Shown here: positions 8,411-63,854 of the stretch, piece after piece | How the letters are laid out: the number at the start of each line of letters is the position of its first letter | Position numbering within the stretch: the stretch's first letter is position 1 | NCBI GenBank assembly: GCA_030377895.1 | Contig: JAUCGB010000004.1 | Coordinates: 1 to 64,000 of the forward strand | Length of the DNA stretch: 64,000 nt | Direction: 5' to 3' | Source: Anaerolineales bacterium HSG24 | GTDB lineage: Bacteria > Chloroflexota > Anaerolineae > 4572-78 > J111 | The notes under the pieces: model-generated | Database searches by the model: none | The model's input: only the letters and a program-made list of their open reading frames with translations | Told to the model about the DNA's origin: nothing | Program-made: the position numbers and the translations under genes

Positions 8411-8513
8411 GGCTACCAACTTAACGTGCGACAGATAATATCGTAACACAGTCTTTAGACTGTGCGGCACAGGCTGAAGCATGTGCTACATGTCTCGGCT
8501 TACGTTGATAGCC
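8411..8513 (+). mobile_element. Family A 103-bp MITE, copy 1
   Basis: The 103-bp element has inverted ends GGCTACCAAC and GTTGATAGCC and an internal small hairpin ACAGTCTTTAGACTGT. It is flanked by an exact 8-bp direct repeat, TGTTGATG, at 8403-8410 and 8514-8521. There is no coding capacity. A GG terminus and 8-bp duplication fit IS1595- or ISL3-type transposases, which are not in this window. Confidence 0.92.
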
Positions 8514-14499: not shown

Positions 14500-14532
14500 A
14501 GAAATGCTTGGGCAAATTGCTCAAGCATTTCT
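14500..14532 (+). terminator. Hairpin after the small membrane protein gene
   Basis: AGAAATGCTTG and CAAGCATTTCT pair across a short loop. The T run is weak, so it may be an attenuator or simply a stabilising stem. Confidence 0.5.
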
Positions 14533-14546
14533 GTGGGTTTAAAGAT

Positions 14547-15626
14547 ATGTATACAAAACGTCATTTTTATCTAGTTGGTTTTTTGTTGATTGTCACACTA
14601 GGATGCGGTTTTTTAGGAGGAGAAGAACCTCCTACCGCCACGCCAGAGCGGGTCAAAATAGACCCATTGGTCACGGCAAAGGCACAGGATAACACAGAAA
14701 AGGTTGAACCAACCGCGACTATACTTGTCGCCAGTCCGTTGCCAAGTGGTGTATCTCTAACCTCCGGCTTGGATGAGTTGGCAAGTTATCGAGCTAATCT
14801 ATCCTTAAAACAGAACGATGGCATGATCAATATCATCAACGAGACGATGAACAGTTCTGGAAACAGTCATCTAACCGTTGAATCTGCGGGGATAAAGGTT
14901 GGTAATTTAAGCGAGACGAGTAATACCGAGGTGTATGTTTTGAACGGTACCGTTTACTTACGTTATGCTCCGGTTGAACCTTGGCTATGGCTACCAGAAG
15001 CAGAGAAGGGCCGAATCTACGTGCCGGATGCCACGGCTATAGCTGAGGTGGCTGGTTCGCTCCCCGTAGAGGGTATCCGTAACGCCGCCCCAGAGCAGGT
15101 CAATGGGGTCATGGCTGAACGGTATAATTTTACCGAAGAGGAGCGGAAGGGAGCGATTTGGGTTGCCGTCGATACGCCCGTTATTATCAAAATAGAGATG
15201 GTCAGCACAAATGATGATTCCTTGCGCTTGAATTATAATCTGATTTCCGAGCTTGATTCGTTTGTTTTGCCGACTGATCTGGAAAACGCGATGGCTCTGT
15301 TGCCCGATGCTCCAACCCCAGAGCCGTTCACCCTAGAAGTCAGCGAAAATTTGAGTAATCAAATTCCGATTATGGTCGATGCCGAGGAGCTATCGGTGAC
15401 AAATAGTACCGCCGATTATATAACCACCTCACCCCTTAATGATGTCGGTAACTTCTATTATAATGAGTTAGAGGCCGCGGGGTGGAAGGTTGACCCTAAT
15501 CTGAACGATACTGATGAGAGTAGAATCACCACCGGATACAGCAAAGAAGGGTATTATATGACTGTGCAGGGAGAACTTAATGTCGATGGTGTGGTCGCTA
15601 TCTCGGTTGTGGTTGAACAACAATAG
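14547..15626 (+). CDS. Putative lipoprotein, LppX/LolA-like fold
   Basis: The start is placed at ATG 14547 because MYTKRHFYLVGFLLIVTLGC is a clean lipoprotein signal with lipobox VTLGC; the upstream in-frame ATG would bury this signal. The mature part of about 340 residues begins with a Pro/Thr/Glu linker. Residues about 75-245 (ELASYRANLSLKQ, LRYAPVEPWLWLPE, GVMAERYNFTEEE) resemble LppX/LprG or LolA-like lipid-carrier lipoproteins. The C-terminal 90 residues repeat a small alpha/beta unit (YYNELEAAGWKVDP). It should sit on the outer face of the membrane. The function is unproven. Confidence 0.75.
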   Translation: MYTKRHFYLVGFLLIVTLGCGFLGGEEPPTATPERVKIDPLVTAKAQDNTEKVEPTATILVASPLPSGVSLTSGLDELASYRANLSLKQNDGMINIINETMNSSGNSHLTVESAGIKVGNLSETSNTEVYVLNGTVYLRYAPVEPWLWLPEAEKGRIYVPDATAIAEVAGSLPVEGIRNAAPEQVNGVMAERYNFTEEERKGAIWVAVDTPVIIKIEMVSTNDDSLRLNYNLISELDSFVLPTDLENAMALLPDAPTPEPFTLEVSENLSNQIPIMVDAEELSVTNSTADYITTSPLNDVGNFYYNELEAAGWKVDPNLNDTDESRITTGYSKEGYYMTVQGELNVDGVVAISVVVEQQ

Positions 15627-15671
15627 TAAAAAAAGTCTTACTACCCGACAAAAATTTTAGCCCAGACTAAT

Positions 15672-15884
15672 TACAGTCGTTCAGAAAATAATTTTCAATT
15701 CAAGACCAACCTTCCCGCAAGTTCAAAACTTGCGGGAAGGGGCTATCAACTTAACGTGCGACAGATAATATCGTAACACAGTCTTTAGACTGTGCGGCAC
15801 AGGCTGAAGCATGTGCTACATATCTCGGCTTACGTTGATAGCCCGGGAAGGTAACGACTGAAAATGTTTATCTGAACAACTATA
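15672..15884. mobile_element. Family C element inside family D, itself interrupted
   Basis: The ends TACAGTCGTTCAGA and TCTGAACAACTATA are imperfect inverted repeats. The uninterrupted copy at 63753-63854 aligns in reverse complement. Compared with other family D copies (…ctaattaacacag…), the element enters at TA and leaves TA on both sides, as expected for IS630/Tc1-type movement. The hairpin CTTCCCGCAAGTT/AACTTGCGGGAAG forms the core and is the target of the family A copy. Confidence 0.75.
15741..15843 (+). mobile_element. Family A 103-bp MITE, copy 2 (innermost of the nest)
   Basis: GGCTATCAAC at the left and GTTGATAGCC at the right delimit 103 bp. The exact 8-bp repeat CGGGAAGG flanks it at 15733-15740 and 15844-15851. 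Removing the element plus one repeat restores the intact family C sequence seen at 63753-63854. Confidence 0.95.
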
Positions 15885-16171
15885 ACACAGAGTAACACAG
15901 AGGGACACAGAGTTTCACAGAGAAAAAACGAGTTATTCTTTCCTCTGTGAAACTCTGTGTCCTCTGTGTTACTGTTTTAACTTTCTCGAAACCAGTTTGT
16001 CGGGTAGCAAGAAAAAAGTCGGTAGTGTGGCCATGTTGACTGATGACCATGTCACTCTGAACATAACGAAGTGGAATGAAGAGTTTAATAGCAAATTTAC
16101 CCTCAAGAAACATACCTATTCTCGAACTTCTCGAACAGACCATTAAAATGTAGGTATTTTCAAAAAAGGGC

Positions 16172-22404: not shown

Positions 22405-22697
22405 CTCAGTACCCGACAGAAAAGTTATTCAAAACTAATTAGCACCTGAGTACAGGACAAAAAAAGATTGAACTTGTTACAGAAGAAAAAAGGGACACGG
22501 ATTAACACGGATACACACAGATAAGCCTAAAAAATCCGTGTTTATCAGCGTTTATCTGTGTCCTAACTGTTTTGTCCGGTACTTAGAATTAGCACAGAGG
22601 AACACAGAGTTTCACAGAGAAAAAGCGAATTATTTTTCCCTCTGTGCCCCTCTGTGCGTCTCTGTGAAACTCTGTGTTCCTGTTTTAGCCTTCCCTA
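22405..22697. mobile_element. Family D element with inserted family E, right end lost
   Basis: The left end is CTCAGTACCCGACAGAAAAG. The CACAGAG long hairpin (22590-22680) is present, but the TGTCGGGTA right terminus is missing and the element runs into the 3' end of the SanA-like gene. A 141-bp family E element interrupts it at 22446-22586. Confidence 0.75.
22446..22586. mobile_element. Family E element with 9-bp target duplication
   Basis: The ends CTGAGTACAGGACAAAA and TTTTGTCCGGTACTTAG are inverted repeats. The body is the common ACACGGATTAACACGG / CCGTGTTTATC hairpin. AATTAGCAC repeats exactly at 22437-22445 and 22587-22595. The ends resemble those of family D (CTNAGTACCCGACA), so both may use related transposases. 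Confidence 0.88.
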
Positions 22698-23342
22698 CTC
22701 AATCGAAATCGGATCACCAAGGACAGGGGCGGGCTGACGGCGAAGCACATCAACCAGAGCCAGCGACATAGCCGGAATCTCTCGGGTTTGTGACCACAGA
22801 ATCGACCCCCGATGATACTGTCGCAAATCAGCCGAAACGCCGACCACATTCAGCCCCAAGTTGCGACAGGTGAACAGAGCGCGTGGCAGATGAAAACCCT
22901 GCGTAATCAACACCGCGTCATTAAGCTGAAAAATCGACTTGGCCCGATAGCAGGTGTCGTAGGTGCGTCGTCCGGCATAATCGGGCTGAATATCCTCCGC
23001 CGGAACGCCATGCTGAATCGCATACTCAGCCATACGAGTCGGCTCGTCGTAATCCTCAAAACGATTATCCCCACTCATAATCAACTTCTCCACCTTACCC
23101 GTTTGATACAGTTGAATAGCCGTATCGACGCGGTCTTGAAGCATGGCACTCAGTCGCCCATCGGGATAGATGCGCGCCCCAAACACCACCGCCACCCGAT
23201 GTTCGGGCAAATCTGTTTGGCTATAGATGTAAGATTGATAGTATAAATCGGTTAATAATCGCCATAAAAACGGCAAACTGACCAGTAAAAGGGCAAACAA
23301 AACAGAACCCAGTAATAATTTTTTGATGCGAGATTTGAACAT
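22695..23342 (-). CDS. SanA/YdcF-like DUF218 protein
   Basis: A 215-residue protein with one N-terminal membrane helix ([20 protein letters not shown]) and a DUF218 domain facing outward. Characteristic segments are [53 protein letters not shown] and [15 protein letters not shown]. coli SanA is linked to the envelope barrier and vancomycin exclusion; the reaction is not known. The stop codon lies where the truncated family D element ends, so the last residues may derive from it. Confidence 0.85.
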
Positions 23343-51671: not shown

Positions 51672-51855
51672 CTTGCTACCCGACAAAGTGGATTAGGGAA
51701 GACTAAAACAGGAACACAGAGTTTCACAGAGAAGCACAGAGTGACACAGAGTAATACAAAAGAAAAATAAATCGTTTTTTCTCTGTGAATCTCCGTGTTC
51801 CTCTGTGAAACTCTGTGTTAATTAGTTCAGATTAAATTTTCTGTCGGGTACTAAG
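51672..51855. mobile_element. Family D element with 8-bp duplication at a Shine-Dalgarno
   Basis: Inverted ends CTTGCTACCCGACA and TGTCGGGTACTAAG enclose the full-length CACAGAG long hairpin, the best-preserved copy in the window. TAAAAGGA repeats exactly at 51664-51671 and 51856-51863. The right copy of this repeat is the ribosome-binding site of the next gene. Confidence 0.92.
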
Positions 51856-63752: not shown

Positions 63753-63854
63753 TATAGATGTTCAGATAAACATTTTCAGCCGTTACCTTCCCGCAAGTTC
63801 TAAACTTGCGGGAAGGTTGGTCTTGAATTGAAAACCATTATCTGAAAGACTGTA
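63753..63854. mobile_element. Family C element, intact copy
   Basis: The ends TATAGATGTTCAGATA and ATCTGAAAGACTGTA are inverted repeats. The core is CTTCCCGCAAGTT/AACTTGCGGGAAG. It is the uninterrupted form of the element at 15672-15884, in the opposite orientation. TA at both ends fits a TA target. Confidence 0.8.

Follow-up and report, generated by a model that had tools for sequence, protein, structure and literature searches.

Three small mobile elements, here called A, C and D, lie one within another at 15629-16019 of the window (the whole stretch of 64,000 nucleotides analysed), and the nest very probably arose from a composite: A entered C once, the resulting C[A] multiplied, and one copy of it later jumped into this D. 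The host, an uncultured Chloroflexota bacterium, is represented by a draft genome (4.04 Mb, 206 contigs, ~75% complete); 429 kb of this genome (G000) and 274 kb of a sister genome from the same genus (G001) were sampled. The host's Lon protease shares 94% identity with that of Anaerolineales bacterium HSG25 (Chloroflexota), which makes the host a relative of the Anaerolineales.

The nest begins 10 bp past the stop codon of a gene (14508-15626) that has no Pfam match, and its right edge is ~240 bp ahead of a gene encoding a LacI-family regulator; an Rfam search gave no match. The stretch that adjoins the nest on the right (16021-16085; GGTAGTGTGGCCATGTTGACTGATGACC...) is itself a repeat, and G001 has many sites with similar stretches. 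The D[C[A]] architecture is confirmed, and the positions and flanking repeats that a first-pass annotation gave for D (15637-16011), C (15672-15884) and A (15741-15843) are exact to the base:

15629-15636, no strand: left target duplication of D, the sequence AAAAAAGT
15637-16011, plus strand: family D element, ~160-185 bp when empty, split by C[A]; ends CTTACTACCCGACAAA and TTTGTCGGGTAGCAAG, inner repeats ACACAGAG
15672-15884, plus strand: C[A] composite, 213 bp including the TA at each end; eight genome copies, six of them full length
15672-15740, plus strand: left part of family C (102 bp when empty), with the hairpin CCTTCCCGCAAGTT-CAA-AACTTGCGGGAAGG
15733-15740, no strand: left target duplication of A, CGGGAAGG, within the C hairpin
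15741-15843, plus strand: family A element, 103 bp, ends GGCTATCAACTTAACG and GCTTACGTTGATAGCC
15844-15851, no strand: right target duplication of A, CGGGAAGG
15852-15884, plus strand: right part of family C, TA-terminated
16012-16019, no strand: right target duplication of D, the sequence AAAAAAGT

Both AAAAAAGT and CGGGAAGG are 8 bp long, and the terminal inverted repeats measure 17 nt in D (94%), 27 nt in C (81%) and 15 nt in A (93%). Each layer can be removed, as had been proposed, to give a sequence that matches intact copies in the window and the genome: excision of C[A] from D yields CTAATTAACACAG, as found in other D copies, and excision of A with one duplication leaves a C that differs from the empty copy L039 solely at position 8 and at loop bases 53-55. 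The window itself holds intact relatives of A at 8411, 40980, 48677 and 54224 (97-98%), an intact empty C at 63753-63854 (92%) and an intact relative of D at 51672-51855 (~74% to the D of the nest). Exact 8-9 bp duplications recur at 16 of the 23 A copies and 15 of the 22 D copies examined, and TA bounds all 30 empty C copies read; the element boundaries are therefore not due to chance. A and D share the 8-9 bp class, so the three different target preferences once seen here reduce to two duplication classes, a minor correction. The target sites of A elsewhere have no sequence in common. Among empty C copies in both genomes, the hairpin loop (C positions 53-55) occurs in both orientations (CAA/TTG and CTA/TAG), for which reason it was dropped as an ordering marker among the composites.

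In what order did the layers accumulate? The order of insertion cannot be read off a nest at one locus alone; the inner pair calls for a whole-genome comparison. C[A] is present at eight places (the window, C1, C71, C68, C33, C174, C64 and C124) in copies that are 98-100% identical and have unrelated flanks. In every one, A occupies the identical insertion base in the identical orientation, and the CGGGAAGG duplication is retained throughout, with one substitution in L003. Six of the eight are full length with TA on both sides, those at C64 and C124 being without the left end. In the C174 copy (L006), the C part is identical to the empty copy L039 at 102/102 positions. Empty sites across TA exist for the copies in the window, C1 and C33, and also for that in C71 (with a 9-nt difference adjoining): the site in the window D is matched in L011, L015 and C53; the L002 site in L033, C139 and L012; the L005 site in the same-genus genome G001 and in C89; and the L003 site, apart from a 9-nt difference next to the junction, in C139 and C53. 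A search of other named genomes, from which records near the host's own genome may be left out, did not recover the exact C/A junction. Near position 1501 of L007, a C[A] copy carries a D-like left end in place of its own, joined at the common bases CAGAAAAT.

These comparisons bear directly on the first-pass annotation, whose nesting, boundaries and removable layers stand and whose inferred order of insertion falls. It had D arriving first, then an empty C entering D, then A entering that C at this locus. Such an order is compatible with the nest viewed alone, and the evidence against it was out of view there, since the other composites lie beyond the window; it is contradicted already by the eight common junctions with different flanks, and would require eight C copies to have been struck by A independently, each at one and the same base and in one orientation. 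Among the C copies examined, the CGGGAAGG site is unoccupied in 36 (where it is followed by TAACG) and filled in eight (where it is followed by A), so most copies bearing the site are empty; given this ratio, the common junction and orientation, and the lack of a fixed target for A, eight independent insertions at one base are not credible, and the order D, C, A is extremely improbable.

Could an empty C have entered D first and received A later through gene conversion, with another C[A] as the donor? Repeats within one genome can convert, and the 3-nt C hairpin loop, found in both orientations, shows some local exchange or inversion; gene conversion among existing C copies may have spread A. 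Yet each composite has a C part that belongs in its entirety, at either end, to the L039-like subfamily; a jump of the whole unit explains this more simply, and conversion is a very unlikely origin for the nest. A false join of repeats is conceivable in a draft assembly of this size and completeness with many near-identical repeats, but the 8-bp duplication of D is the same on both sides of the nest, and the junctions of C and A each restore exact empty sites, leaving an assembly artefact next to no probability.

The preferred history, with a single entry of A into C, very probably ran as follows. One A inserted into the hairpin of an L039-type C, creating the 8-bp duplication, and C[A] then transposed as a unit, by means of the ends of C and with a TA target, to at least eight places. 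Separately, D landed 10 bp downstream of the 14508-15626 gene's stop codon, and one C[A] copy then entered a TA within it (CTAAT-TA-ACACAG). D was of course present before C[A] entered it; the arrival of D may have come before or after the first insertion of A into C. This resolves cleanly how a small composite element multiplied in one bacterial lineage. It is unlikely that the fusion made C[A] a new transposable unit whose two sets of ends were open to two different transposases, and that the acquisition of A altered its mobility or target use.

The sister genome offers some indication of relative age. Copies of C in G001 reach 95-96% identity to the C of the window and copies of D 77-78%. 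The scored candidates and the 274 kb sampled, which are only part of G001, contained no A and no C[A]; this fits a late expansion of A in the window's lineage. An A-like end (GGCTATCAACGTAA...) lies upstream of the G001 LacI gene, so relatives with the ends of A exist there. The suggested search for empty sites in related genomes found one in G001 for the L005 site. As to the target of D, the LacI-family gene is present in G001 (93% identical protein), but the sequence further upstream of it does not align, and an empty D site near this gene is not demonstrable.

Nesting is common in this genome, where a simple census of the 429 kb found six split elements. In a second nest in the window (22405-22700), a ~147-bp relative with ends CTGAGTACAGGACAAAA and TTTTGTCCGGTACTTAG and a 9-bp duplication, AATTAGCAC, interrupts a D-type element. 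The reverse arrangement, C within A at GTGC-TA-CAT, occurs several times (L046 and L048, at position 1501, and C139:74427-74629 and C184:66915-67117 of the host's genome). Also in the host's genome, at C196:47750-47921, A lies directly inside D with a 9-bp duplication, TTCCCTAAA, and a pair of A copies with a common short linker is found at two places on one contig, in opposite orientation (C89:32292-32536 and C89:47543-47787).

A, C and D look like non-autonomous, MITE-like elements: each is short (<500 bp), multi-copy, bounded by terminal inverted repeats and associated with a target duplication, of 8-9 bp in A and D and of TA, with empty sites, in C. None can encode a protein; each was presumably moved by a transposase supplied in trans and acting on its terminal inverted repeats. 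A TA target is an established trait of the IS630/Tc1-mariner family, and 8-9 bp duplications are common to several IS families. C, short and non-coding, with terminal inverted repeats and TA at its ends, resembles MITEs of the IS630/Tc1-mariner family; its TA duplication is as expected of a MITE so derived and points to an enzyme of that type. Its membership is putative, as no IS630-type transposase (PF13358) was found in G000 or G001. A and D resemble the MITEs of IS families that make 8-9 bp duplications; searches of the host's genome for a parent among ISL3, DDE_Tnp_1, IS1595 and IS256 transposases were empty. In all, five transposase families sought in this 75%-complete draft gave no autonomous partner; the ISL3, IS1595, IS256 and DDE_3 models had no match in G001 either, and the single DDE_Tnp_1 match in G001 is without matching ends. 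High-copy IS elements are often missing from draft bins. IS elements bearing the ends TACAGTCTTTCAGA, GGCTATCAACTTAACG or CTTAGTACCCGACA would be the candidate parents.

The nest is a clear yet ordinary case of transposon nesting, a new and well-resolved instance of something already known, and families A, C and D are new only as sequences. Small repeats inserted into one another are already known in bacteria, namely in pneumococcus (PMC3049150). The BOX, RUP and SPRITE repeats of Streptococcus pneumoniae (PMC3049150) are unrelated in sequence to A, C and D; unlike in that system, the two-layer composite described here is itself multi-copy.
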